The position numbers and the translations under genes were made by a program. 42,343 nt of DNA. Origin: Kiritimatiellia bacterium. GTDB taxonomy: Bacteria; Verrucomicrobiota; Kiritimatiellia; CAIQIC01; Lenti-01. This document shows, one piece after another, positions 1,251-28,001 of the stretch. The stretch spans positions 1-42,343 of the forward strand of contig JAFYAC010000018.1 in assembly GCA_017540905.1 (NCBI GenBank). The letters run 5' to 3'. Within the stretch, counting starts at the first letter, position 1. Every line of letters begins with the position of its first letter. Below the pieces are notes generated by a model. The model did not search any database. It had not been told where the DNA came from and saw only the letters and a program-made list of their open reading frames with translations.

Positions 1251-1706
1251 ATGAAGAAAGATACATTTTCCGGGGGCGAGACATGTTCCGGTCGTGGGGC
1301 AGGACCGTGCGGGACATGCATGGGGGAGGATGAGGAAAGGCAGGAGTCCAATCCGCCGGAGGCATTCCGGGAGGAGGTGGCGGGAACGGAGGAGACCGTG
1401 CCGGAAGGGAGGGAGCGGGAGGAGACGGAGAAAAAGGAAGAAAAAGGGAATGGCGGTGCATGGAAATGGGTGGTGGCGCTGTTGCTGGCGGCGGGGCTTG
1501 TCGCCGGCAGGATGTGGTGGAAAGTCCGGTCGGGGGCGTGGGCGGGCGGGGAGAACGGGTCCCGGCAGAAAGCGATTGGCCTGGATGGCCTGAGCCTCGA
1601 AGACGTGCGGTGGGCGGTCGAGGAAGAGGAGGAGTGGCGGGCAGCGGTCCGGAAACAGTGCCAGCAGACGGATGAGGGAGGGGAAGAGGACTCCGGGGAG
1701 CCTTGA
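1251..1706 (+). CDS. Small single-pass membrane protein of unknown function
   Basis: The predicted product has 151 residues. The N-terminal 70 are acidic with four cysteines (CSGRGAGPCGTC region). A single hydrophobic helix spans about residues 70-90 (WKWVVALLLAAGLVAG), followed by a charged C-terminal tail with a Glu-rich run. I recognise no domain. The start is supported by a purine-rich ribosome site (GAGGAGAGAAAGAG) and by the class B promoter 30 bp upstream. It precedes the DUF4384/ESCRT-III-like/VPS4-like cassette and could be a membrane anchor for it, but that is inference from position only. Composition is less typical of coding sequence than in the neighbours, so a non-coding explanation is possible. 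Confidence 0.45.
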   Translation: MKKDTFSGGETCSGRGAGPCGTCMGEDEERQESNPPEAFREEVAGTEETVPEGREREETEKKEEKGNGGAWKWVVALLLAAGLVAGRMWWKVRSGAWAGGENGSRQKAIGLDGLSLEDVRWAVEEEEEWRAAVRKQCQQTDEGGEEDSGEP

Positions 1707-1782
1707 CGGCCAGGCCGGCGACGTGCCTTTGCCATGTACGGCCGCCGGATTCACGTTCGGGGCCGTCCCCCCGAAAAAGTCG

Positions 1783-1810
1783 CAAGGGGAGGGGATCGGG
1801 AAACGTATGG
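1783..1810 (+). promoter_or_regulatory. Class A element (weaker copy): TCGCAAGGG - 15 bp - CGTATG
   Basis: An A-tract (GAAAAAG) followed by TCGCAAGGG, 15 bp and CGTATG repeats the pattern seen at 5466, 8949, 21900 and 29866. It is about 200 bp before the start at 2011, farther than the other copies, so its role is uncertain. Confidence 0.4.
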
Positions 1811-1914
1811 AGGACATGGAAGCGGACAAGGAAACGATGTTGCCGGAGGCGGGGGCTTGCGTCCGGTGGATGCAAGGGGGATGGACGCGGCATGTCCGGG
1901 GGGCGGGTTTCGGG

Positions 1915-1943
1915 TTGCGGGTTGGCGGGAGAGGGGGTAGAAA
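1915..1943 (+). promoter_or_regulatory. Possible promoter: TTGCGG - 17 bp - TAGAAA
   Basis: A TTGCGG hexamer at 1915-1920 and TAGAAA at 1938-1943 are 17 bp apart, and the start codon at 2011 lies 67 bp downstream. It is a single instance and not part of a repeated class, so confidence is low. The 304-base gap 1707-2010 otherwise holds only the class A copy at 1783. Confidence 0.3.
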
Positions 1944-2010
1944 AGGGAAAAAATGGGTCGCGGCCGGGAATGGACGAGGCTTGGAGAACGAAAGGAAGGA
2001 GCAGGGCAAC

Positions 2011-2559
2011 ATGGATGGAGCGGGAACGGCGTTCGGCGGGAAAGCCGGGCGCGTGGAAGTGGAATTGAAGGTCGGGGAAGGGGCGAGGGAGCGGCGGGTG
2101 AAGCCGGCGCGGCGCCACGAGTCCGGGGTGGAACGCCCTCCCGGGACGGTGGCCGTGGGGGAGCGCCTGTCGCTGCGGGTGAAGTCGCCGATCGACGGGT
2201 GGCTGAAGCTGTACTATTTCGGGATGCGGGACGGCCGGGCGGTGGCGCTTTGGCCGCGCGGCGGGGAGGAGGGACGCCTGGAAGCGGGGAAGGAGTACGG
2301 GATTCCCGGGGAGTTGCATCCGCAACCGCTGGTCGAGACCGGTCCGACGACCGCGGAGACGGGACGGAAGGAGCGGTTGCTGGCCGTGGTCACGGCGCGG
2401 CGGGTTGATTTGCCGGCGGCGGCGGTGGATTCGGCGGGCGCGGCGTTCGCGGCGCGCGGCGGGTTCGCGGCGGCCGACGAGGCGGTGGGTTCCCTGCTGG
2501 ACCTGCCGGAAGACGAATGGGATTACGGATTGTTCGAAATGGAGGTCGTACATGGCTAG
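2011..2559 (+). CDS. DUF4384-like protein
   Basis: The predicted product has 182 residues. Its centre reads as a DUF4384 domain: RLSLRVKSPIDGWLKLYYF, then ALWPRG, a LEAGKEYGIPG segment and a closing RLLAVVTARRVDL, the usual pattern of beta strands ending in a strand that reports on a threshold. In other bacteria DUF4384 occurs with caspase-like and kinase signalling proteins. The start at 2011 is chosen because a GGAAGGAGC ribosome site precedes it and the domain lies wholly downstream; an in-frame ATG at 1807 would add unrelated sequence. The last codons overlap the next gene (ATGGCTAG), so the two are translationally coupled. No signal peptide is seen. Confidence 0.65.
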   Translation: MDGAGTAFGGKAGRVEVELKVGEGARERRVKPARRHESGVERPPGTVAVGERLSLRVKSPIDGWLKLYYFGMRDGRAVALWPRGGEEGRLEAGKEYGIPGELHPQPLVETGPTTAETGRKERLLAVVTARRVDLPAAAVDSAGAAFAARGGFAAADEAVGSLLDLPEDEWDYGLFEMEVVHG

Positions 2560-3160
2560 TTTCTGGAAAGCGTTGGGAAAGATGTTCAAGCCGGCGCCGG
2601 ACCCGGCGCAGGCGGCGCTGGAGCGGCGCATCAAGATGAACCGGCTGCAGAGCCGGTTTTCGCTGGAGGTCAAGAAGCAGGACAAGTTCCTGCGGGAGTA
2701 CCTGGGGCAGGCGGTGGAGGCGAAGCGCACGGGGGACGGGGCCACGCTGAAGGCCATCAAGAGCGTGATCGCGCGGACGCTGGCGATGCGCCGGCGGGCG
2801 CAACGGATGCTCAACGCGACCCGGCTGCTGGCGACGACGGCGGACCAGATGGAGAGCTACAAGGAGTTCTGCGGCGTGATGGCCGAAGTGAGCGAGGCCC
2901 TGGGACAGGGACTGACGGCGGGCGAAGTGGCGAAGACCCAGGCGGACCTGGCCCGGGGCTTGCAGCAGGCGCAGAGCGTCGGGGAGATGATGGACCAAAT
3001 GCTGGGGGCGCTGGACGCGACCATCGGGGAGATGGCGGACCGCGAGGAGGAGAGCGGCGGAATCAAGGAGTCGGCGCTGGACGAGATGATCGCGAAGCTG
3101 GCCGGGGAGAAGGATTCGGCGGCGGAAAGCCGGATCGAAGAGCTGCTGGCGAAGATCTGA
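2552..3160 (+). CDS. ESCRT-III-like (CHMP/Snf7-type) helical protein
   Basis: The 202-residue product is all helix and resembles a eukaryotic CHMP protein in length and layout. It begins with a short amphipathic helix (MASFWKALGKMF), like the N-terminal membrane anchor of Snf7. A long basic helical hairpin follows (about 22-100), including KRTGDGATLKAIKSVIARTL, which parallels the CHMP2 segment around KQGQMDAVRIMAKDLVR. Next is a Met/Gln-rich helix and an acidic stretch (about 125-180). The product ends with SRIEELLAKI, similar to a C-terminal MIM1 helix. The gene overlaps the DUF4384 gene by 8 bp and lies 10 bp before a VPS4-like ATPase, the expected partner. PspA/Vipp1 are the known bacterial ESCRT-III proteins but lack such a partner. 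The assignment is by eye and needs a profile or structure search. Confidence 0.65.
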   Translation: MASFWKALGKMFKPAPDPAQAALERRIKMNRLQSRFSLEVKKQDKFLREYLGQAVEAKRTGDGATLKAIKSVIARTLAMRRRAQRMLNATRLLATTADQMESYKEFCGVMAEVSEALGQGLTAGEVAKTQADLARGLQQAQSVGEMMDQMLGALDATIGEMADREEESGGIKESALDEMIAKLAGEKDSAAESRIEELLAKI

Positions 3161-3170
3161 GGGCCGGACG

Positions 3171-4451
3171 ATGCTGCACGGGCTGATCGAGCGGGAAGAG
3201 GGGCTGAAGGCGGCGGCGCTGCGGGCGGCGGACGCGGGCGACTGGCAGGGGGTGGCGTCGATGGCGAAGGAGCTGCAGGCGGTGTACCGGGCCATCCTGG
3301 CGTCGGGTGCGGTGCCGGCGCCGGAATCGGCCCGCTGGGAGGGGTTGCTGGAGCGCTGGACGCGACTGGAGGCGGAGGCGGTGCGCAAAGCGGCGCTGGG
3401 CCCGGCACGGGCGGCGGCCGCGGCGAAGGCGTCCGCGCCGGAAGCGGTGCTGCGGCTGTCCATCGAGACGGCCCCCCCCGCCCCCGCCCCCGCCCCCGTT
3501 CCCGTATCCGGTCCGGCGCCCGCGCAGGCCTGTTCCCCGGTCCCGGCGGCGAAATCGGCGACGGGCGTGACGCTGGCGGACGTGAAGGGACTGGAAGCCG
3601 CGAAGCAGGCGGTGATGGACGCGCTGGTGAATCCGGTGCGGCATCCGGACATCTACCGGACGCTGAAGATCAAGAACGGGAAAGGGCTGCTGCTGTACGG
3701 GCCGCCGGGGACGGGCAAGACGATGTTCGCGCGGGCGGTGGCGGGGGAGCTGGGGTTGCCGTTCATCTACAAGAAGATGAGCGAGCTGAAGGACAAGTAC
3801 GTGGGGGAGAGCGAGAAGAACGTGTCGCGGCTGTTCGAGGAGGCCCAGTCGCACAAGCGGTGCGTGGTGTTCCTGGACGAATGCGAGAGCATCCTGCGGA
3901 AGCGCGGAAACCAGAAAATCAACGTGGTGGAACAGTTCCTGGCGGAACTGGACGGGTTCGGGACGAGGCGGGACGTGCAGCTGTTCCTGATCCTGGCGAC
4001 GAACCGGCCGTGGCTGATCGACAGCGCGGTGACCCGCAGCGGGCGCATCGGCCTGGCGGTGCACGTGGGGTTGCCGGACGCGGAGACCCGGCGGGCGATC
4101 GTGTCGGCGGCGCTGGAAGGGGTTCCTTTGGCGCCGGACGTGGACGTGGAATCCATCGTGGCGCGGACCGAGGGGTACAGCGGGGCGGAACTGCACCACG
4201 GGGACGGCGGGGGGGTGTGCGACGAGGCGGCGATGGAAGCGAGCCGGCGCTGGGTGAAGCGGCGGGAGCCGCTGCGTCCCGGCGACCCGGAATGGAACCG
4301 CGTGGAGGAAGTGACGGCGGCGGACTTCGAGACGGCGCTGGAAAAGGTGGTGCCGGTTTCGAGGAAGGACCCGGAAATCGTGCGGAAGAACCGGGAATTC
4401 TCGCTGTCGAACGCGGCGGCGGGAGAGGACGGGGACCCCGAGGCAGACTGA
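3171..4451 (+). CDS. VPS4-like AAA ATPase with MIT-like N-terminus (module 1)
   Basis: The product has 426 residues. Residues 1-80 form a three-helix segment (GLKAAALRAADAGDWQGVA, then ARWEGLLERWTRLEAEA) resembling the MIT domain by which VPS4 binds ESCRT-III tails. A Pro/Ala linker follows (about 100-130). The AAA module has a Walker A GPPGTGKT (177-184), a pore-region KYVGESEKN, a Walker B with Asp236-Glu237, a sensor-1 Asn278 and an RSGRI arginine-finger region. The entry VTLADVKGLEAAKQAV is typical of the VPS4/katanin/spastin clade. A Gly-rich insertion (HHGDGGG) in the GYSGAEL helix is unusual. The expected role is to remodel or disassemble the polymer of the protein encoded at 2552. A small spacing (10 bp) suggests one transcript. 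Confidence 0.75.
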   Translation: MLHGLIEREEGLKAAALRAADAGDWQGVASMAKELQAVYRAILASGAVPAPESARWEGLLERWTRLEAEAVRKAALGPARAAAAAKASAPEAVLRLSIETAPPAPAPAPVPVSGPAPAQACSPVPAAKSATGVTLADVKGLEAAKQAVMDALVNPVRHPDIYRTLKIKNGKGLLLYGPPGTGKTMFARAVAGELGLPFIYKKMSELKDKYVGESEKNVSRLFEEAQSHKRCVVFLDECESILRKRGNQKINVVEQFLAELDGFGTRRDVQLFLILATNRPWLIDSAVTRSGRIGLAVHVGLPDAETRRAIVSAALEGVPLAPDVDVESIVARTEGYSGAELHHGDGGGVCDEAAMEASRRWVKRREPLRPGDPEWNRVEEVTAADFETALEKVVPVSRKDPEIVRKNREFSLSNAAAGEDGDPEAD

Positions 4452-4469
4452 ACAGGGAAGGAGAGAGCG

Positions 4470-5432
4470 ATGGTCTGGAACGAGACGATGGTGAAAGAGT
4501 GGGTGGATTCCTGGACAGCCGGTTTCCCTGAATGGGTGGGATGGGTGGTGTGGGCGTTGCTGGGAATCGCCGCTCTGGCGGTGTTGCTGCTGCCGTACTG
4601 GCTGGCGAAATGCGGAGCGCGGCTGGACCGGGCGATGTGCAAGGAGGGGAAGGTGACGACCGGCCTCGGCGGCCTGACGGCGTGGGTGGCGCTGGGCGCG
4701 GCGGTGTGGCGGGGAATCGCGCCGGCCTACGCACTGTGGGACCGGCACGCGGAATTGCACGGTGCGTGGCACGACACGAAGCACTGGGTCATCGGGATGG
4801 ACCTGCGGGCGACGGTGCAATACGCGTTCCCGTGGGGCGTGCGGACCATTCCGGAGGAGGTGGGGGTGATCCTGGACGGGCTCCGGATCTGGTGGTACGT
4901 GCCGCTGGCGGGGATGGCGCTGGTGTGGCTGATGCGGTCGTGGAAGTTCCGGAGTCCGGTGCATGCGCTGGCGGACGCGGCCGGACAGACGGGGATCGCC
5001 CTGGCCATCTACTGGGGCTACGGCCTGCTGCTGGGCGGCTACCTGCTGCAATGCGCGGCGAGGGTGGGGGCGGCCATCGCCGTGCTGGTGGGAGGGGCGT
5101 TCCTGTTCCTGTTCATGCTCCAGACGTGGTGGAACGAAGCGTCCGGGAAGAACCGCCTGGCGGAAGAGGGACGGATTCCTCCACCGCCGGTTTTCCCCGG
5201 ATTGGGCGGCGACCCGGACGGCGGGGAGGCGTCCACGCGCCCTGCGGGATACGGGGTGGAAAACACCGACATGTTCAACGAGGGTTTGATGCACAGGAAC
5301 CAATGGGGACCGGACGAGCACTGGCGGCTGGTCGAGAAATCGATTTACGGCGATGTGTACGAAAACGAGAAGGGGGAGCGCAAGACGGTGGAGAAGACGG
5401 ATGCGTTCGGGCATCCGACGGAACTGCGGTAG
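4470..5432 (+). CDS. Polytopic membrane protein of unknown function
   Basis: The product has 320 residues with about five or six hydrophobic helices: about 22-47, 65-85, a pair around 137-155, and 170-215. The soluble C-terminus (about 225-320) is charged and ends in GHPTELR. After the first helix comes LDRAMCKEGK, and the broken gene at 21343 has LERAACKEG at the same place, so the two are paralogues. It starts 18 bp after the AAA gene with a GGGAAGGAG ribosome site, which puts it in the same operon; it could be the membrane platform for the ESCRT-like cassette. I recognise no family. Confidence 0.65.
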   Translation: MVWNETMVKEWVDSWTAGFPEWVGWVVWALLGIAALAVLLLPYWLAKCGARLDRAMCKEGKVTTGLGGLTAWVALGAAVWRGIAPAYALWDRHAELHGAWHDTKHWVIGMDLRATVQYAFPWGVRTIPEEVGVILDGLRIWWYVPLAGMALVWLMRSWKFRSPVHALADAAGQTGIALAIYWGYGLLLGGYLLQCAARVGAAIAVLVGGAFLFLFMLQTWWNEASGKNRLAEEGRIPPPPVFPGLGGDPDGGEASTRPAGYGVENTDMFNEGLMHRNQWGPDEHWRLVEKSIYGDVYENEKGERKTVEKTDAFGHPTELR

Positions 5433-5465
5433 GCAGGGCCGGGGAGCGGAGAAAGCGGAAAAAAA

Positions 5466-5496
5466 CTGCAAGGGCGGTGGAACGGGGAACGTATAG
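5466..5496 (+). promoter_or_regulatory. Class A element: CTGCAAGGG - 15 bp - CGTATAG
   Basis: An A7 tract is followed directly by CTGCAAGGG and, 15 bp after the GGG, CGTATAG. The yccF start lies about 80 bp downstream. The same layout occurs at 8949, 21900 and 29866. TTGCAA to TATA is 20 bp, too long for an ordinary sigma-70 spacer, so an alternative sigma factor is plausible. Confidence 0.55.
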
Positions 5497-5577
5497 GGGG
5501 CAACGGCAGGAGACGGACGCCGAAGCGGAGCCGATCCTGGCACGACAACAAGGGAAACAAAAACAAAGGAAGACAAA

Positions 5578-6030
5578 ATGAAGACAATCGGCAACATCAT
5601 CTGGTTCATCCTCGGCGGGTTCATCGGCGGGACGCTGTGGCTGCTGGCGGGCGCCATCCTGTGCGCGACGGTGGTCGGGATCCCGTTCGGGATGGCCTGT
5701 TTCCGGATTGCGTCGTTCGCGTACGCGCCGTTCGGGAAGGAACTGGTGGACGCGCGGGACATGGGCGAGGAGCGCATCGCCGGGACGGGGCTGATGAATG
5801 TCCTGTGGGTGGTGCTTGCGGGGCTTTGGCTGGCGATCTCGAACGTGCTTGCGGGGATAGCGTGCTTCTGCTCGATAATCGGAATCCCGTTCGGGATTGC
5901 GTGCTTCAAGCTGGCGTCGGCCTCTTTCGCGCCGCTGGGCAAGCGGATCGTGTCGTCGGACATGGCGTTTGCGGTCCGCCAGCGGAAGGCGAACGCTGAA
6001 CTGGACCAGCGGCTGGGTTCCGAGGCGTGA
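5578..6030 (+). CDS. yccF: YccF family inner-membrane protein
   Basis: The 150-residue product carries two tandem copies of the YccF (DUF307) pattern. The first is NIIWFILGGFIGGTLWLLAG with a VVGIPFGMACFRIASFAYAPFG segment; the second is NVLWVVLAGLWLAI with IIGIPFGIACFKLASASFAPLG. These match the usual YccF domain pair and its usual length of about 150. Function in the family is unknown. The start is an ATG preceded by AAAGGAAG. It has its own class A element and stands between the two ESCRT-like modules, but is probably transcribed alone. Confidence 0.85.
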   Translation: MKTIGNIIWFILGGFIGGTLWLLAGAILCATVVGIPFGMACFRIASFAYAPFGKELVDARDMGEERIAGTGLMNVLWVVLAGLWLAISNVLAGIACFCSIIGIPFGIACFKLASASFAPLGKRIVSSDMAFAVRQRKANAELDQRLGSEA

Positions 6031-6049
6031 GCCTGGGACGTGGCACACA

Positions 6050-6094
6050 GACGCGGCGCCGGCCGGTGCGGGAACCCGCCCCGGCCGCCGCGTC
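6050..6094 (+). terminator. GC-rich stem-loop after yccF
   Basis: GACGCGGCG (6050-6058) is perfectly complementary to CGCCGCGTC (6086-6094), with further pairing inside (GCGGG-AA-CCCGC). It follows the yccF stop by 20 bp. No T-run follows, so it may be a pause or mRNA-stabilising hairpin rather than an intrinsic terminator. Confidence 0.35.
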
Positions 6095-6175
6095 CCGCCG
6101 GGCGAGGGGGAAAAGGGCGGCCCCTGTCGCGGGGGAGGGGGGGGGAAGGCACCGGTTGCGGGGCTGAATGGCGGC

Positions 6176-6204
6176 TTGGCGGCAGGGCGCGGGCATGGTA
6201 GGGT
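6176..6204 (+). promoter_or_regulatory. Class B promoter: TTGGCG - 17 bp - TAGGGT
   Basis: TTGGCG at 6176-6181 and TAGGGT at 6199-6204 are separated by 17 bp, with the upstream AATGGCGGC shared by other class B copies. The first gene of the second ESCRT-like module starts 79 bp downstream. Confidence 0.65.
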
Positions 6205-6282
6205 GAATAATCACGCAAGGGGCCGGCAACCTGCGGCGTATAGGAATTTGGAAACCAAGACAACCAGGAAACGAGGAGAAGG

Positions 6283-6924
6283 ATGAACTTTTTCAAGAAA
6301 TTGTTCAGCGACGTGCAGGACGTGGCGGCGACGGCGCGGGATCCGGAAGCGGGGACGGCGGCGATCGAGAAGAAGATGCGGGAATTCAAGATGCTGGCCA
6401 ATTCGCTGGACTTCCAGTGGAAGCGGCTGAACGCGGAATGGAAGAAGGCGTCGTCGATCGAGGAGAACCTGAAGCGGACGCCGATGATGCGCGCGCAGTC
6501 GTTGCGGCGTGCGAAGGCGCTGGCGCGCCGGATGGGGCTGATCGGGAAGATCTCGGGGGTGGTGGGGACGTTCTCGGACGTCCTGCAGCAGTCGCTGGAG
6601 CTGAAGAAGCACATGATCCAGATGAAGAAGGCGGCGGGGAACCTGGAAGAACTGGCGACGCTGGGGGGCGAGATGGACAAACTGATGGCGCAGAACGAGG
6701 CGGCGTTGAGCGGGCTGGGGGAACTGCAGAACAAGCTTGAATACTACCAGAGCCGGATGGAGATCCCTGGGGATCCCCTGGAGTCGCAGGAGAAGACGCG
6801 CCTCGACGAGCTGTACGAGAAACTCGAGACGTGCATGGGGGAGGGGAAGACGGACGAGGTGGAACGGATCCAGAAGGAAATCGACGCGGCGGTGAACGCG
6901 GCGGCGGGCTTGCAGCCGGCGTAA
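6283..6924 (+). CDS. ESCRT-III-like helical protein (module 2, first copy)
   Basis: The 213-residue product is predicted all helical. It opens with an amphipathic helix MNFFKKLFSDV, similar to the membrane-inserting N-terminus of Snf7. A long helical hairpin (about 27-85) is rich in Lys/Arg (KKMREFKMLANSL, RRAKALARRMG). A Met/Gln-rich helix follows (about 105-125, LKKHMIQMKKAAGNLEELA) and then an acidic C-terminal helix pair (about 165-210). The order and length fit an ESCRT-III subunit. It is followed by a second such protein and a VPS4-like ATPase with gaps of 15 and 35 bp, repeating module 1. Single-gene assignment is weaker than for the 2552 protein; a phage-shock (PspA-like) or general coiled-coil protein is the main alternative. 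Confidence 0.55.
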   Translation: MNFFKKLFSDVQDVAATARDPEAGTAAIEKKMREFKMLANSLDFQWKRLNAEWKKASSIEENLKRTPMMRAQSLRRAKALARRMGLIGKISGVVGTFSDVLQQSLELKKHMIQMKKAAGNLEELATLGGEMDKLMAQNEAALSGLGELQNKLEYYQSRMEIPGDPLESQEKTRLDELYEKLETCMGEGKTDEVERIQKEIDAAVNAAAGLQPA

Positions 6925-6939
6925 GGAAAGGAGACGGAC

Positions 6940-7572
6940 ATGGGCATCATCGACAAAGTGAAGAAGGCGCTGTTCACGGAGGCGGAGACGGAGAAGCCGG
7001 CGGAGGTGCCGACGCTGGAGAGCATCCGCACGCGGCTGTTCGAGGCGAACCGGAACCTGGAGATGCGGAACCGGGAGGCGGCGGCGGCGGAAGCGCGCGC
7101 GCAGGCGGCGCTGCAGAAGACGTTCCAGGCGGGGATGTCGACGCTGGAGCGGCAGAAGCTGATCGCGGAAAGCCAGAAGGCGAAGAAGGAGGCGGCGTTC
7201 CACCTGCGGTGCGCGGGCCAGTTCATCGCGCTGACGGAGACGCTGGAGAACGCGGAAACGCTGCTGGAGCTTTCGGACACGATCAAGAGGAGCGGCCTGA
7301 TGGAAGAAGGGGCGCTGAACTTGCAGGAACTGATGAAGGAGCTGGAGAACGCGGATGCATTCCTGGAACCGTTGATGGGGACCTGCCAGGAGATCCGCAG
7401 CAGCATCGAGGCGTCGATGGGGCAGTTCGACGGCTTGGTTTCGCAGGGGGTGTCGGAGGAGACGAAGGAGCTGGAAGCGCTGTATCGGCAGTTCGAGATG
7501 GAGACGGATCCGGAGAAGAAGGAAGCGATCCGCCAAAAAATCGAGACGAAGATGAGCTTGCAGGCGGTGTAG
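6940..7572 (+). CDS. ESCRT-III-like helical protein (module 2, second copy)
   Basis: The 210-residue product starts with an amphipathic helix (MGIIDKVKKALF). Long helices follow: about 25-70 (TRLFEANRNLEMRNREAAAA), 70-110 with basic residues (ERQKLIAESQKAKKEAAF) and a Leu/Thr-rich helix around 95-120. An acidic C-terminal region ends in a helix around EKKEAIRQKIETKM. It has the dimensions of a Snf7/CHMP subunit and may co-polymerise with the product of 6283, as different CHMPs do in eukaryotes. It sits 15 bp after that gene with an AAGGAAAGGAG ribosome site. Assignment is from length, pattern and context. Confidence 0.55.
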   Translation: MGIIDKVKKALFTEAETEKPAEVPTLESIRTRLFEANRNLEMRNREAAAAEARAQAALQKTFQAGMSTLERQKLIAESQKAKKEAAFHLRCAGQFIALTETLENAETLLELSDTIKRSGLMEEGALNLQELMKELENADAFLEPLMGTCQEIRSSIEASMGQFDGLVSQGVSEETKELEALYRQFEMETDPEKKEAIRQKIETKMSLQAV

Positions 7573-7607
7573 GGCCGGAACCAGGGCGAGGAGCGGAGGA
7601 TACGGAG

Positions 7608-8909
7608 ATGAACGGAGCAATGCAGCAGGTGGTGGCGTGCCGGGAGAAGGCGGAAAGCCTGAAAGCGGCGAAGGAATGGGCGGCGGCGGCGGCGGCGTAC
7701 GAGGAGCTGGCGCGGGCGTGGGTGGCGGCGGCGGGGCTGGCGACGACGGCGTCGGGGCGCGCGGACCGGCTGAAGGCACACCAGGCGGCGCTGGACGAAG
7801 CGGCGGCGTGCCGGAAGAAGGCCGGTACGGGGAAGAACGTGGGGGCGCAGGGATGGGGCTGGAGGAAGAAGGGCAAAAAGGGGGACGGTGGCGGCGGACA
7901 GGCCGGGGAGGGGCCGGACGGGGAGGGCGAATGGCCCGACGGAAGCCTGCACGCGCAGCTGGCGGGGGACGATATCGGGGAGCAGATCATCGCGCAAATC
8001 CACGGGAGCCTGCGGACGTCGGGGGTGACGTGGAACGACATCGGCGGCCAGGAAAAACTGGTGGAAGACCTGAAGACGATCCTGGCGCAGGCGGTCATGA
8101 CGCGGCCGGACGGGAGCCGGCCGTACGGGGCGGGGCAAATCCTGATGGTGGGCCCCCCCGGAACGGGGAAGACGATGCTCGTGTCGGCCATGGCGAACTC
8201 GATCAGCAAGGCAGGCGCGTTCTTCTGCCCGAAACTGGCGGACATCAAGGGGCACTACGTGGGGATGACGGAGAAGGCCATCAGCCTGCTGTTCGAAACG
8301 GCGCGGGCGAAAGCGCCGTCGATGGTGTTCATCGACGAAGTGGACTGCCTGTGCCGGGCGCGGGACGGGGGCACGGGGGGCAGCGGGGAACTGGGGGTGT
8401 TGCTGGCGGAGATGGACGGGATCAACGCGAAGGGGGACGGGCAGGGGGAGGTGCCGTTCGTGCTGAGCGCGGCGGCCACGAACGCGCCGTGGGCGCTGGA
8501 CCCGGCGTTGATGTCGCGTTTTTCCGGCCACGTGGTGCTGGTGGGGGCGGCGGACGCGCCGGGGCGGCGGCAGATCCTGGCAAAGCTGCTGCGCAAGTAC
8601 GAGTGCGCGGGGGAGGTCCTGGACTGGCTGTCGGCGGACGAGCGGACGGCGGGGTTCTCGGGACGCGACCTGGAATCGCTGGCGAAGAACGCGGTGCAGG
8701 CGATGCAGAAGGAGATGAACCCGGAGATCGGGAAATGGGAGGACATCGGGGAAGTCCAGGGGCGGGTGCAGAAGGAACGTCCGCTGGAACGCGGGGATTT
8801 CGAAAAGGCGATGGGATTGGTGAAGGCGTCGATCACGCCGGAAATCGCGGCGGACTACGAGGCGTGGATCCGGGACCGGAGCTACAAGCCGAAGAAGAAG
8901 CAGGCGTGA
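7608..8909 (+). CDS. VPS4-like AAA ATPase with MIT-like N-terminus (module 2)
   Basis: The product has 433 residues. Residues 1-75 are a helical MIT-like bundle (CREKAESLKAAKEWAAAAAA, then RLKAHQAALDEAAACRKKA). A charged linker follows. The AAA module starts at TWNDIGGQEKLVEDLKTI and has Walker A GPPGTGKT (182-189), a GHYVGMTEKA pore segment, Walker B FIDEVD (Asp243-Glu244), sensor-1 Asn292 and an MSRF finger (Arg304). The end, ASITPEIAADYEAWIRDRSY, resembles the C-terminal helix of VPS4 that packs on the ATPase ring. The ATG at 7608 is chosen for the GGAGATACGGAG ribosome site; an ATG four codons later is possible. Paired with the proteins at 6283 and 6940 it forms a complete ESCRT-III/VPS4-like set. 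Confidence 0.8.
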   Translation: MNGAMQQVVACREKAESLKAAKEWAAAAAAYEELARAWVAAAGLATTASGRADRLKAHQAALDEAAACRKKAGTGKNVGAQGWGWRKKGKKGDGGGGQAGEGPDGEGEWPDGSLHAQLAGDDIGEQIIAQIHGSLRTSGVTWNDIGGQEKLVEDLKTILAQAVMTRPDGSRPYGAGQILMVGPPGTGKTMLVSAMANSISKAGAFFCPKLADIKGHYVGMTEKAISLLFETARAKAPSMVFIDEVDCLCRARDGGTGGSGELGVLLAEMDGINAKGDGQGEVPFVLSAAATNAPWALDPALMSRFSGHVVLVGAADAPGRRQILAKLLRKYECAGEVLDWLSADERTAGFSGRDLESLAKNAVQAMQKEMNPEIGKWEDIGEVQGRVQKERPLERGDFEKAMGLVKASITPEIAADYEAWIRDRSYKPKKKQA

Positions 8910-9017: not shown

Positions 9018-10388
9018 ATGAACTGGTTGATGGTGGCATGGATCGCGGGGGGATTGTCGATGTTGCAGACGCTGTGGATGGTGGGGCATTCGCGGATGTT
9101 CCCGCTGTGGAAGGGAATCGTGTACGCGCTGATCGCGGGGGTGGTGCTGCTGTACGTGGTGCCGCAGGCGAATCCGTGGCTGGTGTTCCTGAGCCTGGCG
9201 GCGTTCAACGTGGGGGTGCGGCCGCTGGACGCGCGGGAGCCGTCGGCGCTGGCGGCGCTGCTGTCGCTGGGGCTGACGCTGGCGGTCGTGGTGGCGGGGA
9301 ACCTGCTGCTGGACGGGGACGCGGTGTCGTACGGGGGTGACCTGGGGGCGTGCGTCCGGCAGAACGTGGCGGGGCGGTGGGAGAAGATCGTGGCGGGAAG
9401 CGTGCGCGCGGTGGAGAAGATGCGTCTGGAGACCCGGTCGGCGTCGAAGGCGGGGAAGCCGGCGCCGGGGCCGTCGAAGGCCGCGCGGAAGGAGCTGAGG
9501 AAGGTGAGGGAGCTGCTGCTGCCGGTGGACTGCGAGGACATCCTGGCGGCGGTGGACGACCTGGATGCGAAGATCGAAAGGGTCCAGAAGGAACTGGTGG
9601 AGGCGGAAGGGGCGCGGGTGAGGCATCCGGAGGAGGCCGGCAAGTACGACGCGCGGGTGGAGGCCGTGCGGGCGAAAAAGGCGTCGCTGGAAACGGAGCG
9701 CGGGGTGCAGGCCGCGAAGGTGATGGAGAACCTGCGGGGCATGGGATTGAACATCCCGGGGGACGCGGCGGACCGGTGCCTATTCCCGGTGAACGTGGAG
9801 ACGCTGATCGACAACGCGATCGTGGCGAAGGACATCGCGGAGGTGGTGGAGCAGCTGGGGCGGTTCATGGCGTCGGAGGACCTGGAGACGGCGAAGCGGT
9901 ATTTCGGGATGTACCTGGTGATGATCGAGGTGCAGGCGGAAAGCTACCGGATGTACCTGGAGAAGAGCGAGAACGGGGAATGGCGGCAAGGGATCACGTC
10001 GATCCGGAAGAACGCGGAAGCGGCGGCGCTCTCGGACGAGGCGATGTCGAAGCAGGCGCGTTTCAAGGACAACGAGCGCGAAATCTTCAGGAAGAACGCG
10101 GCGACGAACCGGAAAACGGTCGAGGCCGCGGACGCGTACCTGGACATGCTCCGGCAACACGAGACGGTCATCCGCGGCAAGCTGGCGGAAGCGGAGCGGA
10201 TTCGGGAAGTGGCGCAGAGCTCGTGGACGACGGTGAACCTGGCGAGCGACCTGCTGGCCATCGTCAAGACGAGCAACGAGGCGTTCCAGGCGCTGCTGAG
10301 CCTGGAACTGCCGCCGCTGATGCTGTTCGACGACACGGCGCTGCAAGCGGAATTCGACGCGATCACGCGGAAGCTGCGGAAAGAATAG
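9018..10388 (+). CDS. Membrane-anchored coiled-coil protein, unrecognised family
   Basis: The product has 456 residues. Four hydrophobic helices fill about residues 3-98, followed by a long cytoplasmic helical region with coiled-coil character (about 155-240, then 290-440). Its C-terminal two-thirds align by eye with the protein encoded at 22009: both have DNAIVAKDI or DNAIVAKNI, a KRYFGMYLVMI / KRYFGTYLVMI segment, and an FDAITRKL terminus. I recognise no named family. The gene has its own class A element and leads the cluster holding a caspase and the GTPase pair. A role as membrane scaffold or sensor is inference only. Confidence 0.65.
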   Translation: MNWLMVAWIAGGLSMLQTLWMVGHSRMFPLWKGIVYALIAGVVLLYVVPQANPWLVFLSLAAFNVGVRPLDAREPSALAALLSLGLTLAVVVAGNLLLDGDAVSYGGDLGACVRQNVAGRWEKIVAGSVRAVEKMRLETRSASKAGKPAPGPSKAARKELRKVRELLLPVDCEDILAAVDDLDAKIERVQKELVEAEGARVRHPEEAGKYDARVEAVRAKKASLETERGVQAAKVMENLRGMGLNIPGDAADRCLFPVNVETLIDNAIVAKDIAEVVEQLGRFMASEDLETAKRYFGMYLVMIEVQAESYRMYLEKSENGEWRQGITSIRKNAEAAALSDEAMSKQARFKDNEREIFRKNAATNRKTVEAADAYLDMLRQHETVIRGKLAEAERIREVAQSSWTTVNLASDLLAIVKTSNEAFQALLSLELPPLMLFDDTALQAEFDAITRKLRKE

Positions 10389-10404: not shown

Positions 10405-11880
10405 ATGGAAAACAGAAGGAAACAGCGGCGGGTGGCCTTGTTCGTCGGGGTGGACAACTATCCGGAAGACGCGGGGATCCATCCCCTGCGTTGCGCCGTG
10501 GAAGACGCGAAGGCGTTTTGCGCGCACATCCGGACGGATTCGAAATTCGACCGCGACAACGTGCAGCTTTTGGAAAACCCGACGACCAGGGAGGTGGTGC
10601 AGACCGCGGCCAAGCTGCGCGCGGGGCTGGGGCCGGGGGATTTCTTCCTGTTTTATTTCGCAGGGCATGGCGTCACCGATTCGCACGGCGAACACCGGCT
10701 GGTGTGCCGCGATTCCATTTACGTGGAAGACGCCGACCTCATCAACACCCTTTCCCTGTCCTCCGTCGTCGGACGGAAAAACGCCTGCCACCGGGCCGTG
10801 GTCCTGGATGCATGCCGGACGCCGCTGAAGATGCCGAACGAGCGCGCGGTGGGCGGCGAAAGCGTCGCCGTGATGCGCGATCTCGCCTTGGGCAGCTTGC
10901 AGCAGTTCATCCAGTCCGAGGCGTGCGGTGAGGGGACGTCGCTCTCCATCCTGTGTTCCTGCGACAAGGGGAAAAGCGCGGGCGAAATCGCCGATTTGGG
11001 CCATGGCCTGTTCACGCAGGCGCTTCTGGACGTCCTGTCCTCCGCGAAGAAGCATTTCCGCCAGGTCCTCTTCGGCGGGGAATTTGTGAAGGCCATTGCG
11101 GCGCAGATGAAGACATTGGCCACCCAATACGCGAAATACCAAGAGCAAATGCCTTGGTTCCAGAGCAACAATTTGGCGGAAACGCCCGAACTGGCGTCCG
11201 CCGGGCTGGATGTCCGTCCGTTCCAGAAGGTGCTGCTGGACTTGGCCGGACAGGAGCTCATCAGCCAGGACACCAAACAGCGCTGCGAGCGGGAATTGCT
11301 GGGGGAAGGCACTTCCGCCGTGCAGCAGGGGGTCATCGAAGCGTGCAACCTTTTCATGGGCGGCTCACAAATCGGTCCGGAGAGCGCGGCCGGCGCGGAG
11401 TGCGCGGCCACCCTCCTTTCCGCGATGGGCGATTCCGCCATGCAACGCCTCCGCGAAGAGAACAGCCGCCTGACGGCGCAATTGCACCGGGCGGAAGGGA
11501 AATTGGCGGAAATGGGGGGGGCGGTTCCGCGCTCCGGGGAGCAGGATTCGCCCCTTGGGTACGAAGAACGGGAGATGCTGTCGAAGTTCTGCACTGGGGT
11601 GACAAGCCCTCCGGGCGCGCTGGGCGCCGTGCGGAGCTCCCAGACGGAGGGGGAAGCGGTTTCGGCGTTGAACAAGCTGTCCCTGGACTGGGTGGAAACG
11701 TACGGCCGGGGAAACGCGAGGGGACGCGGTCCAATCCGGTCGATTCCCGTCCGGGTGACCCCCGAAGGGCAGGCCTTGGCCACGGAATTGCGGAATGTCG
11801 GAGACAGCGTCCGCACTCCATTGCAAAAGGCATTGCTTCTGGCCTTGAACGCCGCGCTGTCCCTCGGCGGACGGGTTTGA
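10405..11880 (+). CDS. Caspase-like (C14) peptidase with C-terminal helical extension
   Basis: The product has 491 residues. The peptidase domain fills about 8-250: an opening VALFVGVDNYPE strand, the catalytic FAGHG (His88) and the VVLDACR catalytic Cys137, with SCDKGKSAGE and GHGLFTQALL typical of bacterial caspase-like (metacaspase/CHF) proteins. Residues about 260-490 are helical and unassigned, with a coiled-coil at RLREENSRLTAQLHRAEGK. The family cleaves after basic or acidic residues, often in cell-death or conflict systems; specificity cannot be read here. It follows the 9018 gene by 16 bp. Codon use is less G-biased than in the flanking ESCRT-like modules. Confidence 0.85.
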   Translation: MENRRKQRRVALFVGVDNYPEDAGIHPLRCAVEDAKAFCAHIRTDSKFDRDNVQLLENPTTREVVQTAAKLRAGLGPGDFFLFYFAGHGVTDSHGEHRLVCRDSIYVEDADLINTLSLSSVVGRKNACHRAVVLDACRTPLKMPNERAVGGESVAVMRDLALGSLQQFIQSEACGEGTSLSILCSCDKGKSAGEIADLGHGLFTQALLDVLSSAKKHFRQVLFGGEFVKAIAAQMKTLATQYAKYQEQMPWFQSNNLAETPELASAGLDVRPFQKVLLDLAGQELISQDTKQRCERELLGEGTSAVQQGVIEACNLFMGGSQIGPESAAGAECAATLLSAMGDSAMQRLREENSRLTAQLHRAEGKLAEMGGAVPRSGEQDSPLGYEEREMLSKFCTGVTSPPGALGAVRSSQTEGEAVSALNKLSLDWVETYGRGNARGRGPIRSIPVRVTPEGQALATELRNVGDSVRTPLQKALLLALNAALSLGGRV

Positions 11881-22008: not shown

Positions 22009-23715
22009 ATGGCGGTACTTGGATGCACGTGGTTTTTCCTGGGGTTCACGCTGGCGACGTTGCTGGCGGCTGGAGCGGGCGCGGCGCGCAAGCTGACGTG
22101 GCTGGGGCGGGCGCTGGGGCTGCTGGCGGTGTTCCTGGGGGTCCGGTATTTCGTGATTCCGGCGTGGATGCCGGAAGGGGAACTGGCGTACAAGACGAAG
22201 GCGGTGTTCGAAATCATGTTCCTGCACTCGCTGGCGGTGTCGGCGTCGGCGGGAATCACCGCGGGGACGCAGTTGAAGCGGGGCGGGGGGCTGGGGGACT
22301 TGCTGGTGCGTCTGGCGCTGGTGGGCGGGCTGTATCTGGCGTTCTGGGACGTGGTGTCGGTGTGGCCGTTGCTGGGGCAGGCCTGGCTGTGGCTGTACCT
22401 GCTGGCGGTGGTGGTGCTGGGGGGCTGGCTTGGTTCGGTTTGGGTCATGAAAAACATCGTGGGCCTGGCGGTTGAGTCCGCGAGCGGGAACGAGAGCGGG
22501 AAGAAGGTTGCCGCGCGGGGCGGCCTGTCGTGCCTCGGGATGTTGCTGATGGCCGTTCTGGGGATCGTTTCGTCGTTCTACTTCGTGTTCTGCATCCTTT
22601 CGGAGGAAGACCGCACGGCGGCGAACCGGGAAATCGGGAACGTGGTGGCGACGCTGCGGGAGGCGATGTCGGAGAAGATGCCGCTGGTGGAGAAGCAGAC
22701 GGCGAAGCTGCTGGCGGTGTGGGAGAAGGCGCTGGAAGCGGACCGGAAGATGATGGAACGGGGCGGGGGGAGGACGGCGGACGCGCGGTCGCGCCGGGAA
22801 GTGGCGCATTCGCTCGGGGAACTGCGCGAGCTGCTTCTGCCGGTGGACTCGCGGGCCATCCTGTCGGCGGTGGAGAAACTGGACCGGGACATCGCGTCGG
22901 AGAAGAAAGGGCTGGCGGCGGCGCGGGAAAGGCGGCTTTTCCATCCGGCCGGGGCGGAGAAGTGGGAGAAGCGCATCCGTGCACGCGAAGAGAAACTGCC
23001 AGAACTGGAGAAAGCCCGTGCCGACGCGGCGGCGAAGGTGCTGGCGGACCTGGATGCGATCGGCATCCACCTGGAAGGGGAGACCGCGGAACGGTGCCTG
23101 TTCACGGTGAACACGGGAGACCTGGTGGACAATGCGATCGTGGCGAAGAACATCTCGATCCTGGTGGAAAACCTGAAGCGCCTGATGGCGGAAACCGGCG
23201 ACGCGGAATCGGCGAAGCGGTATTTCGGGACGTACCTGGTGATGATCGACGTGCAGGCGGAATGCTACCGGCGGTACATCGCGAAGAGCGAGTCGGGCGA
23301 GTGGCGCAAGGGCGTGGAGGGCATCCGTCGCGACGCGGACGGGGCGCGGGCCCGGAACGCGCTGGAAGCGGGGAAGGACGGATACGCCGAGGCAGAACGG
23401 GAGGGATTCCGGAGGAACGTGGCGCTGAACGAGAGGACGATCGCGGCGGCGGACGCGTACCTGGAGGTGTTGCGCCAGCACGAGGAGATCGTGAAGGGGA
23501 AACTGGCGGAGGCGGAACGGTTGCACACGCTGGCGCTGAACTCGTACGAGACGGTGAGCATCGCGAGCGGGCTGCTGGAGCAGGTGAACGCGAACCAGAC
23601 GGCGTTCGACGCGATGCTGGAGCTGACGCTGCCGTCCATCGCGGCCTACGACGACGCGGGGATGCAGGAAGAATTCGACGCAATCACGCGCAAGCTCCAG
23701 GGCGGAGCCGAATAA
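22009..23715 (+). CDS. Six-helix membrane protein with coiled-coil C-terminus, paralogue of the 9018 gene
   Basis: The 568-residue product has about six hydrophobic helices in residues 1-215, two more than its paralogue at 9018. The rest is cytoplasmic helix, with coiled-coil from about 215 to 345 (LREAMSEKMPLVEKQTAKLL). The conserved block shared with the 9018 protein includes DNAIVAKNI, KRYFGTYLVMIDVQAECYRR, the ESGEWRKGV segment and FDAITRKL at the end. The start is the ATG at 22009, after GAAGGAGACGGAG. It is a single-gene unit between a class A element and a terminator. Function is unknown. Confidence 0.7.
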   Translation: MAVLGCTWFFLGFTLATLLAAGAGAARKLTWLGRALGLLAVFLGVRYFVIPAWMPEGELAYKTKAVFEIMFLHSLAVSASAGITAGTQLKRGGGLGDLLVRLALVGGLYLAFWDVVSVWPLLGQAWLWLYLLAVVVLGGWLGSVWVMKNIVGLAVESASGNESGKKVAARGGLSCLGMLLMAVLGIVSSFYFVFCILSEEDRTAANREIGNVVATLREAMSEKMPLVEKQTAKLLAVWEKALEADRKMMERGGGRTADARSRREVAHSLGELRELLLPVDSRAILSAVEKLDRDIASEKKGLAAARERRLFHPAGAEKWEKRIRAREEKLPELEKARADAAAKVLADLDAIGIHLEGETAERCLFTVNTGDLVDNAIVAKNISILVENLKRLMAETGDAESAKRYFGTYLVMIDVQAECYRRYIAKSESGEWRKGVEGIRRDADGARARNALEAGKDGYAEAEREGFRRNVALNERTIAAADAYLEVLRQHEEIVKGKLAEAERLHTLALNSYETVSIASGLLEQVNANQTAFDAMLELTLPSIAAYDDAGMQEEFDAITRKLQGGAE

Positions 23716-23837: not shown

Positions 23838-23867
23838 TGGGAGGATGAAGCAGCAGGAGACATGTTG

Positions 23868-25853
23868 ATGAAGCGGGCGGCGCTGTTCGTGGGCGTGGAC
23901 GAGTACGAGGACGGGAGCATCGCCAACCTGGCGTATCCGGTGGAGGATGCGTACGGGCTGGCGGCGGCGTTCGACACGCTGCTGGGATTCGAGCGGGTGG
24001 AACGGATGCGGAATCCGGCGGGGAAGAAGGACATCCTGCGGAAGGTGCGGGAGGTGACGTCGGGGCTGGGGAAAGGGGATTTGTTCTTCTTCTACTTCGC
24101 GGGGCACGGTTTCCGGGTGAAGGACAACCACGTGCTGGTTTGCGCCGGGGACTTGTATGCGGACCTGGAGGACGAATACGACGGGTTGCCGGTGGGGCAG
24201 CTGAAGAAGCAGGCGCGGGGGCCGTGGGACCGGATGCTGGTCATCGACGCGTGCCAGAACGACATCCGGCGGACGCGGGGTGCGGACGAGGGGATGGCCG
24301 GGGAGGACTTGACGCTGATTTTGGAGGACGGGGACGGGGAAGGCGGGGATGCCGGGGAAGGGGCGCAGGTGGTGGTGACAAGCTGCGCCGAGGGGCAGAA
24401 GGCGTTGGAGGTGAGGGAACTGGGGCACGGGCTGTTCACGTCGGCGCTGCTGGAGACGGTGAAGGAGCACGCGGCGGAGAAGCGCCGGCTGGACATGGCG
24501 GGCTTCCGGGAGGAGATGGGGGCGCGGATGGGGTCGCTGGCGAAACGGTACCGGCTGCCGGGGAAGCAGAATCCGATGTTCAAGGTGCCCGGGGAGTGCG
24601 GAATCGTGCTGCTGGAGGGGGATGGGCCCGCGCGCCCGGGGAAGGGGGCGGCCCCGGTCCTGGAAGCGGACCGGCGGTGCGTGCAGTCCGAGGGGATTCC
24701 GGGGACGGTGCGGTTCCGGTTCGATCCGGGGCCGGCGGGCGGGGCGGGAAAGGTCCGGATCGCCCTGCGCAATGCATTGACGGGGGAGGAACGGGCGTGC
24801 AAGCCGCGGCGCATGGACCGGGCGGGGGAAATCCGGATCCAGCTGGGCGGGCAGGTGCGGGGGGTGGCGACGTGGACGGTGGAGGTGTCCTGGGAGGCGG
24901 AAGGAAGCCGTCGCCAGTACGTGGGGGAGACCGAAATCGTGGTGGCGGGGGAGGGGAACGCGGGGAAGGTGGCACGGGCGCTTGGGGGCGTGCCGGGGGA
25001 GGACTGGAAGGGGTTGGAGGGAGAAGAGGCGCTGGCCGCATTGCGGCGGTGGGCATTGGGGAAAGAACGGTCCTGGGAGGCGGTGGAGTTGTACGAGGCG
25101 GACGGGGCGGGGCCGGACGAGCCGCCGGCCGCGGCGCGGACGGAGCGTCTGGCGCTGCGGCGGGGCGGCCGCCGCGTGTACGTGTTCGCCGGGGAAACGC
25201 TGCGGTTCGGGCGGGAGCATCCGCCGGAGGCCCCGAACGATTTCACGTTGCGTCCGGGGCGGGGCGGGGTGGCCGCGCCATACCGGCGGATCAGCTCGAT
25301 GCACTGCCGGTTCGCGCCCGACGGGGACGGAGTCGTCCTTGCGGACGGGCGGCCGGACGGGCGGGGGGGAGGGCTGCGGCCATCCCTGAACGGGACGTGG
25401 TGGAACGGGAGGCGCGTGGAGGGCCGCGTCCGGCTGCGTCCGGGCGAGGAAGGCGAGGTGGCCTTCGGGGCCCCGCCCTCGGCATTCGGCGTCCCGCGGC
25501 TGAAGGCGAAGGTTTTGGCGGCGGCGGGATGCGCCGGGTGTCCGGAGGGCGGCCGGGGGGCATGCGGGCGTGCGGGGCGGCCGTCCCTTCTCCTGGAACG
25601 GACGGACGGGGTGGAGGAGCGTTTCCTGGCGTTGTGGGGTTGCGTGGATTGGGGAGACGTGGAGGCGGAGGGGAGAGGGCTGGCGGTTTTCCGGAAAGAG
25701 GGGGCCTTTGCGTGGCGGGAGGGAGACCGATCCGGCTGGCTCGTTCCGGGGGAGCCGGGGCCCGAGGGGCTCGGAGGGGCGGAAATCGGGACGGAGGGAA
25801 ATTGGCGGAAGACGAGGAGGCCGGGGAGCCCGGGAGGCCAGGATGAGGCATGA
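23868..25853 (+). CDS. Caspase-like peptidase with FHA domain
   Basis: The product has 661 residues. The caspase domain fills about 1-245, with FAGHG (His80) and LVIDACQ (Cys129), and then GHGLFTSALLETV. A beta-rich linker follows. An FHA domain lies at about 425-535: a TLRFGRE strand (Arg near 449), RISSMHC (His near 479) and NGTWWNG, all canonical phosphopeptide-binding positions. The start at 23868 keeps the same 12-base spacing from GGAG as in the paralogue at 28002; an ATG at 23862 is too close. FHA reads phosphothreonine, so a kinase substrate could recruit this protease, and the next gene is a Ser/Thr kinase. It overlaps that gene by 11 bp. Confidence 0.8.
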   Translation: MKRAALFVGVDEYEDGSIANLAYPVEDAYGLAAAFDTLLGFERVERMRNPAGKKDILRKVREVTSGLGKGDLFFFYFAGHGFRVKDNHVLVCAGDLYADLEDEYDGLPVGQLKKQARGPWDRMLVIDACQNDIRRTRGADEGMAGEDLTLILEDGDGEGGDAGEGAQVVVTSCAEGQKALEVRELGHGLFTSALLETVKEHAAEKRRLDMAGFREEMGARMGSLAKRYRLPGKQNPMFKVPGECGIVLLEGDGPARPGKGAAPVLEADRRCVQSEGIPGTVRFRFDPGPAGGAGKVRIALRNALTGEERACKPRRMDRAGEIRIQLGGQVRGVATWTVEVSWEAEGSRRQYVGETEIVVAGEGNAGKVARALGGVPGEDWKGLEGEEALAALRRWALGKERSWEAVELYEADGAGPDEPPAAARTERLALRRGGRRVYVFAGETLRFGREHPPEAPNDFTLRPGRGGVAAPYRRISSMHCRFAPDGDGVVLADGRPDGRGGGLRPSLNGTWWNGRRVEGRVRLRPGEEGEVAFGAPPSAFGVPRLKAKVLAAAGCAGCPEGGRGACGRAGRPSLLLERTDGVEERFLALWGCVDWGDVEAEGRGLAVFRKEGAFAWREGDRSGWLVPGEPGPEGLGGAEIGTEGNWRKTRRPGSPGGQDEA

Positions 25854-27970: not shown

Positions 27971-28001
27971 GGAAAAAGATGAAGCAGAAGGAGACAGGGC
28001 G

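Follow-up and report, generated by a model that had tools for sequence, protein, structure and literature searches.

A probable bacterial ESCRT-III/Vps4 machine with a second AAA ATPase in a Kiritimatiellia genome

The stretch of DNA analysed here, hereafter the window, comprises the first 42,343 bases of the 114,430-base contig JAFYAC010000018.1 of a Kiritimatiellia bacterium, whose draft genome (G000; 178 contigs) is 84% complete. On its plus strand it encodes a Snf7-type ESCRT-III protein, esc1, and a Vps4-clade AAA ATPase, aaa2, together with a second AAA ATPase, aaa1, and two further helical proteins, esc2 and esc3, which are the weaker case; together they probably form an ESCRT-III/Vps4 machine of bacterial type that includes an additional ATPase. 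An earlier note, made from the DNA letters alone, had proposed a duplicated cassette of ESCRT-III-like and VPS4-like genes at this site. There is strong support for the pairing of a bacterial ESCRT-III protein and a VPS4-type ATPase, and the five open reading frames (ORFs) named in that note are real, orthologues of all five core genes being present in identical order in a Victivallales bacterium from goat rumen (locus L116; identity to the window 43% for esc1, 59% for aaa1 and 47% for aaa2). The two modules exist, but are not duplicates of each other, as they consist of different paralogue sets, esc1 and aaa1 on the one hand and esc2, esc3 and aaa2 on the other, and other loci carry aaa2-type, esc1 and aaa1-type genes in a row. 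The G+C pattern over codon positions was positive for four of the five core ORFs; aaa2 was missed by this scoring, which chose an antisense frame there, although its AAA domain is clear. The core features, with the model confidence given as predicted local distance difference test (pLDDT), are the following.

2552..3160, plus strand: esc1, Snf7-type ESCRT-III protein of 202 amino acids (family profile, hhalign, model with pLDDT 80.7)
2555..2584, plus strand: N-terminal amphipathic helix of esc1, alpha-0-like (model helix 2-11, hydrophobic moment)
3125..3157, plus strand: C-terminal MIM1-like motif of esc1, residues 192-202 (loose motif; the window esc1 lacks the strict consensus)
3171..4451, plus strand: aaa1, second AAA ATPase with an MIT-like N-terminus and a Cdc48-side core (Pfam AAA 1.1e-35, tree)
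6283..6924, plus strand: esc2, ESCRT-III-like helical protein, weaker case (L116 orthologue; esc3-seeded profile with the bias filter off)
6940..7572, plus strand: esc3, ESCRT-III-like helical protein, weaker case (low-confidence model, Foldseek)
7608..8909, plus strand: aaa2, Vps4-clade AAA ATPase (Pfam AAA 1.4e-25, tree, VPS4B alignment)
7608..7832, plus strand: MIT-type N-terminal domain of aaa2 (hhalign of profile A7 against archaeal Vps4 N-termini)

The ESCRT-III proteins

That esc1 is a Snf7-type ESCRT-III protein is apparent from its family, aligned as 17 proteins with the window esc1 first (alignment A1). Compared with 177,635 distinct PDB sequences, the A1 profile gave eleven matches at an E of 1 or below. 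Rows one to eight are CHMP3, CHMP2A and SNF7 (E 6.4e-7 to 0.08, with CHMP3 at 6.4e-7, CHMP2A at 0.0045 and SNF7 at 0.03-0.08) and the tenth is CHMP1B (0.74); rows nine and eleven are unrelated to ESCRT-III. Pfam Snf7 matches 11 of the 17 members (best 6.2e-6) and PspA_IM30 none of the 17 at E 0.01. The likeness to CHMP proteins that the earlier note had read by eye from the protein at 2552 is thus borne out by family profiles; by itself, in single-sequence searches, the window esc1 matches neither Pfam Snf7 nor an ESCRT-III protein in the PDB, and a single-sequence Pfam scan of the helical proteins of the window was uninformative.

The family is likewise linked to archaea. Against a comparison set of archaeal ESCRT-III proteins encoded beside Vps4, in which Snf7 is found in 11 of the 15 members (best 3.1e-25) and Ist1 in one, A1 scored 94.2% in hhalign (E 1.1e-7), falling to 0.1-0.2% with either side reversed. 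The family hidden Markov model (HMM), run on the 2,047 ORFs of the fetched loci, gave 30 matches, of which the 16 bacterial ones are members of the family itself and the other 14 are archaeal; the reversed control on the same ORFs gave no match. An iteration started from the window esc1 alone and with the bias filter on collected bacterial proteins first and, in the second round, archaeal ORFs beside Vps4. A quick esc1 tree places the bacterial proteins on one side of a branch with a support of 66, where they are joined by three archaeal rows (95).

The AlphaFold (AF2) model of esc1 (pLDDT 80.7, predicted template modelling score 0.66) predicts helices at residues 2-11, 18-60, 63-117, 123-160, 173-184 and 188-201, which corresponds to the ESCRT-III helix order of alpha-0, a long alpha-1/alpha-2 hairpin, alpha-3 onward and a C-terminal tail helix; residues 1-10 are modelled with a mean pLDDT of about 61. 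The check by structural hits that had been proposed gave mixed results: the first eight Foldseek rows of esc1 are archaeal CdvB/CdvB2, none with an E under 0.001, and a search by VIA ranks BAR domains above CHMP3. The best 50 VIA-align matches listed contain no PspA/Vipp1 row, which excludes nothing. The amphipathic N-terminus expected from the letters is seen in esc1, where the hydrophobic moment of residues 2-13 is 0.60 and equally high in 27 of 5000 shuffles, and in esc2 (46 of 5000), not in esc3 (792 of 5000). The predicted charge distribution, basic in the first half and acidic in the last quarter, is seen in esc1, with net charges by quarter of +7, +6, -4 and -8, and in esc2 (+1, +7, 0, -8), and is weaker in esc3 (-1, +3, -8, -4).

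At its C-terminus, the esc1 family carries a loose motif, D/E-x-x-aliphatic-x-x-x-L/M-x-x-aliphatic, formulated post hoc from the family alignment and present in 13 of the 17 members including that of the window (shuffled mean 0.49), which is absent from the alignments of esc2/esc3 and of the second helical family described below. The strict eukaryotic consensus of MIM1 occurs in 3 of the 17 (shuffled mean 0.005), the window esc1 not among them. Judged from these motifs, a MIT-MIM contact between the ATPase N-terminus and the esc1 tail is likely.

Among the helical proteins of the window, which had all been proposed as ESCRT-III proteins, the assignment stands for esc1; on sequence grounds it is doubtful for esc2 and esc3. 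Both have clear orthologues in L116, where their searches end without reaching ESCRT-III when the HMMER bias filter is on; with the filter off, an iteration from esc3 reaches archaeal ESCRT-III and picks up esc2. Their joint profile scored 50.3% against the esc1 family and 10.7% against the archaeal ESCRT-III set in hhalign (reversed 0.4% and 1.0%). The esc3 model is poor (pLDDT 68.1), with a helix order similar to ESCRT-III, and its Foldseek search gave a single strong row on top, CHMP1B+IST1 (probability 1.00, E 0.028); rows for Vipp1 and PspA also appeared, but their probability was low. By position and low-confidence shape only, esc2 and esc3 may thus be called ESCRT-III-like. In Planctomycetota, a second helical family of eight proteins (A6) is encoded upstream of the Vps4-type gene; its profile has no ESCRT-III match in the PDB, scores 74.1% against the archaeal ESCRT-III set (E 2.8e-5; reversed 0.2%), and reaches 3.4% against the esc1 family and 0.5% against esc2/esc3.

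The two ATPases

The placement of the ATPases rests on a careful tree of 83 AAA domains, namely 40 archaeal Vps4, picked by the same ATPase motif as the bacterial rows, 22 bacterial aaa2-type and 9 aaa1-type proteins, 8 Cdc48 halves from 4 archaeal proteins, 2 proteins combining TPR and AAA domains (TPR-AAA), and L014 and L015. The last two were labelled FtsH by guess and have no HExxH in their frames, so that the trees are silent on FtsH; L067, which has a short frame, L081, L093 and L095 were omitted, as were archaeal frames below 370 amino acids or without the motif. A branch with a support of 100/99 separates 62 rows, which are the complete aaa2-type (22) and archaeal Vps4 (40) sets, from the other 21, and 21 of the 22 aaa2-type ATPases form one set (99/96). 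Holding all 22 together was rejected (p 0.0024), and in a quick tree the Dehalococcoidia aaa2-type protein stands among euryarchaeal Vps4. In contrast, aaa1 and its relatives are placed with the Cdc48 and TPR-AAA rows (100/99), grouping with the TPR-AAA proteins of L011 and L012 (97/86); forcing the aaa1-type to the Vps4 side costs 12.25 log units with a borderline p of 0.055 in the approximately unbiased (AU) test, by which such a placement is not firmly excluded. The VPS4/katanin-clade core that the earlier note had assigned to both ATPases therefore holds for aaa2 and is doubtful for aaa1, and the grouping with p97, named there as an outcome that would speak against the idea, was found for aaa1 only.

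Plain PDB score lists are headed by Cdc48, which can match twice, for aaa1, aaa2 and the aaa2 family, and in NCBIfam aaa2 scores narrowly higher with Cdc48 (114.7 bits) than with CdvC (111.0 bits). The full aaa2-family profile aligns to VPS4B residues 7 to 354, and the N-terminal profile of this family (A7) scored 97.5% against archaeal Vps4 N-termini over 75 columns (hhalign, E 7.6e-12; controls 4.2% reversed and 16.1% with TPR). The corresponding value for aaa1-type N-termini is 89.6% (E 1.9e-6; reversed 1.2%). Among the families listed, Pfam MIT gave no match for aaa2, and the short N-terminal profile found a VPS4 MIT structure with an E of 0.25 at best. Vps4_C (PF09336) is recognized in 8 of 19 aaa2-type and 6 of 9 aaa1-type proteins, neither window ATPase being among them.

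Neither ATPase alignment shows any variation at the lysine and threonine of Walker A, the acidic pair of Walker B or the sensor asparagine, and because these nucleotide-binding residues are kept, aaa1 and aaa2 are predicted to hydrolyse ATP. In sum, aaa2 is a Vps4-clade ATPase with an MIT-type N-terminus and conserved nucleotide-binding motifs; aaa1, with its MIT-like N-terminus, is not filed as Vps4 because its core falls on the Cdc48 side. A compensating frameshift pair considered for the odd stretch after GYSGAEL in aaa1 was rejected, given a matching insert in L116.

Distribution and relation to known systems

Genes of the esc1 type and of the Vps4 clade are neighbours in several bacterial phyla. 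When species genomes were scanned at the DNA level for the ATPase motif ATN-x-PW-x-(L/I)-D-x-A-x-x-SR, at least 118 stretches were obtained, 26 of them with bacterial titles, and among the matches listed 16 of these 26 have an esc1-family gene within the locus, distributed over Planctomycetota (12), Chloroflexota (2, Dehalococcoidia and Caldilineaceae), Victivallales (1) and one further bacterium. In L082, esc1 lies about 900 bases beyond the locus edge in its genome. The gene was not found in the alphaproteobacterial loci L022, L045 and L081, nor in L025, L107, L044, L066, L090 and L093, several of which are incomplete. In Planctomycetota, the esc1 profile detects one gene each in 55 of 324 genomes (weakest E 5.8e-45); in the best-scoring 30 of these 55 loci, esc1 has a Vps4-type gene at a distance of no more than about 1.5 kb and in the same orientation 28 times, and an aaa1-type gene is also present ten times. 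Closer to the window, occurrence is patchy, with esc1 found in one of 18 genomes of the taxonomic family and one of 387 of the phylum, and esc2 in one of 29 of the order, in each case the window itself only. A search of the phylum with aaa2 matched 7 of 288 genomes, that of the window included; of the six further matches three were examined, one being cassette-like (L010, genome G178) and two the TPR-AAA loci L011 and L012, and a class-wide search of 236 genomes from the L010 ATPase gave six further matches. L010 (10876-15666) comprises a subtilase gene, two genes for helical proteins and one for a Vps4-clade ATPase whose N-terminus is MIT-like.

With the archaeal ESCRT-III/Vps4 systems (CdvB/CdvC, Asgard), the genes described here share the neighbourhood of a Snf7-type helical protein and a Vps4-clade ATPase with MIT domain as well as the profile links, and they differ in the bacterial host, the extra Cdc48-side ATPase with its MIT-like N-terminus and the extra helical genes beside the Vps4-type gene. 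PspA/Vipp1 are likewise bacterial members of a helical membrane-remodelling superfamily, but for the esc1 family the profile that matches is Snf7, with PspA_IM30 giving nothing at E 0.01; PspA itself has no match in the window draft genome at its 84% completeness. Passages of a 2023 review (PMC7615534) describe bacteria as being without a clear Vps4 homologue, passages of a study in Cell (2021; PMC8281802) call it not clear whether PspF fills the Vps4 role, and in such published passages the combination of Vps4 and ESCRT-III is confined to archaea and eukaryotes. According to excerpts of an mSystems article (2024; PMC11237479), bacteria have VPS4-like ATPases in loci where snf7 is displaced, PspA can stand beside a double-AAA protein, and in some longer operons an AAA ATPase adjoins homologues of PspA and Snf7 that have a membrane segment. 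As these operons pair PspA/Snf7 homologues with an AAA ATPase, the bacterial link between Snf7 and AAA proteins is, as far as the excerpts go, partly anticipated. The VPS4-like AAA type with TPR and a 6TM partner in the same excerpts resembles the present locus in having a single-AAA ATPase beside membrane genes, and the TPR-AAA proteins of L011 and L012, which group with the aaa1-type, look by eye like this type; here, in contrast, a Snf7-type gene is present and aaa2 belongs to the Vps4 clade. Among the matches listed in open-access literature, titles and abstract beginnings contain no bacterial operon of Snf7 with a Vps4-clade ATPase. A bacterial pair with both parts changes the distribution map of ESCRT-III plus Vps4 and bears on the spread of eukaryote-like membrane remodelling.

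In several of the loci other genes are found nearby. In L102, L097 and L112 (Pirellulaceae, Chloroflexota), kinase, sulfatase-modifying-factor (FGE) or PEGA-domain proteins adjoin the bacterial ESCRT genes. The aaa2-type ATPases of L022, L045 and L081 have in their vicinity a biotinyl-like gene and a carbon-nitrogen hydrolase, the latter tested for L022 alone, and L025 (49-3489, rumen Clostridia) has a single-AAA ATPase gene followed by four genes for proteins of about 190 amino acids, of which one of two tested matches a proteasome family (22.9 bits, cut-off 22.4).

Proposed function, rival explanations and gene neighbourhood

The machine most likely serves to remodel or repair the inner membrane at the expense of ATP. 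The proteins esc1 to esc3 would attach by their N-terminal helices to the cytoplasmic membrane from the inside and co-polymerise, and aaa2, as well as aaa1, would grip the MIM-like C-terminal tail of esc1 with its MIT domain. By pulling subunits through its pore, the aaa2 ring may then change the make-up of the polymer, whereby the membrane would be bent, resealed or severed, with aaa1 presumably acting likewise on another subunit or at another step. For the window genome, which has a gene of the FtsZ/tubulin family, as has the Dehalococcoidia genome, membrane remodelling or repair is likelier than division.

That the machine performs the final membrane-severing step of division like archaeal Cdv, in Planctomycetota without FtsZ, is an unlikely explanation for which two observations speak, the CdvB/CdvB2 proteins as best Foldseek rows and the lack of an FtsZ/tubulin-family match in all 55 esc1-positive Planctomycetota genomes. 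Yet FtsZ is nearly absent throughout, with matches in only 6 of the 324 genomes, so that 0 of 55 versus 6 of 269 others (263 genomes having neither esc1 nor FtsZ) offers too little contrast and there is no association between esc1 and FtsZ loss; moreover, the window and Dehalococcoidia genomes carry such a match. Of similarly low probability is a peptidase-linked conflict or stress module resembling IetAS, with the helical proteins as scaffolds or targets, the AAA proteins regulating in the manner of chaperones and, as effector, a caspase in the window or a subtilase in L010, the membrane being secondary or not involved. It would account for the caspase gene 1.5 kb after aaa2, for the subtilase (2.5e-43) directly upstream of the L010 cassette, for DUF4384 in the vicinity of the cassettes of the window, of L116 and of L010 and for the patchy occurrence of esc1 in the phylum, and both ATPases resemble IetA, as the L010 protease weakly resembles IetS. 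The IetA likeness, however, is a general AAA likeness, aaa1 (109.5 bits) and aaa2 (61.7 bits) staying far under the NCBIfam cut-off of 510, and no subtilase is found among the window genes scanned; IetAS is not known to have an ESCRT-III-like partner. Furthermore, with four caspase genes in the window the one near aaa2 may be there by chance, no peptidase was noticed on visual inspection of those stretches of Planctomycetota and Chloroflexota loci that were viewed, which had no dedicated search, and the homology to Snf7, Vps4 and MIT would be left unexplained. A conflict module can be compatible with an ESCRT-III/Vps4 machine.

Far less probable than either is that the helical proteins are unrelated coiled coils beside ordinary AAA chaperones, even though coiled coils yield false matches, structural searches of helical bundles are ambiguous and Cdc48 is the nearest match of the ATPases in simple score lists. 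For esc1, ESCRT-III proteins in 9 of 11 PDB profile rows with empty reversed controls, the success of the bias-filtered iteration and the conserved adjacency to Vps4-clade ATPases argue against it; esc2 and esc3, which fail to reach ESCRT-III with the bias filter on, may be such coiled coils. For the ESCRT-III/Vps4 machine, a coupling to the caspase or subtilase in Victivallales and L010 is possible, and division in FtsZ-less Planctomycetota is a possibility. The abstract of PMC5147048 counts the shaping and division of membranes in FtsZ-less bacteria among the major mysteries, to which the genes reported here offer a candidate answer. Taken jointly, a bacterial branch with ESCRT-III/Vps4, a MIT-MIM code and two ATPases, which would divide FtsZ-less Planctomycetota and serve in Victivallales as a caspase-coupled switch for membrane repair or cell death, is improbable in this full form.

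The plus-strand row of the window reads DUF4384-like gene, esc1, aaa1, membrane protein, YccF, esc2, esc3, aaa2, cc1 and caspase-family peptidase; the genes accompanying the core are listed below.

1672..2559, plus strand: DUF4384-like gene overlapping the esc1 start, accessory (Pfam DUF4384 E 0.0014, below the cut-off)
4470..5432, plus strand: accessory protein encoded between the modules, predicted to lie in the membrane (hydrophobic stretches in its sequence)
5578..6030, plus strand: YccF-domain inner-membrane protein, accessory (Pfam YccF 4.9e-34)
9018..10388, plus strand: cc1, membrane-anchored coiled-coil neighbour, functional link putative (no Pfam match, window paralogue)
10405..11880, plus strand: caspase-family peptidase neighbour, functional link putative (Pfam Peptidase_C14 4.9e-18)

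In L116, a DUF4384 gene (E 1.9e-9) lies upstream, two before esc1, and near the L010 cassette the match is below the cut-off (E 0.0092). The membrane protein at 4470..5432 has no Pfam match and no relative in the fetched loci, L116 included; unlike in the window, the membrane-protein gene of L116 is positioned before esc1, and no YccF gene was seen there. The peptidase at 10405..11880 scores 61.5 bits with the EACC1-associated caspase of NCBIfam (cut-off 140).

Inside the window, four Peptidase_C14 genes stand within about 22 kb (10405-11880, 23862-25853, 27864-29681 and 29951-31912); an FHA domain is present in one of them and FGE domains are fused to two, and a kinase with Sel1 repeats is encoded near them. 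The cc1 gene has a paralogue at about 22030-23715 (50% identity over 296 amino acids), and each of the two directly precedes a caspase-domain gene.

A GC-rich repeat of 27 nucleotides occurs in the window at 220-246, 449-475, 609-635, 667-693 and 41336-41362, and the contigs of G000 hold 48 copies (29 forward, 19 reverse) with none for the reversed pattern used as control. Contamination of the genome bin is not supported, and the window contig appears to be correctly binned, because the repeat, with five copies on it, is common to it and other contigs of the genome. Translated in different frames, the repeat yields peptides that recur, among them RRGRLAPP and GRAVPGEP.

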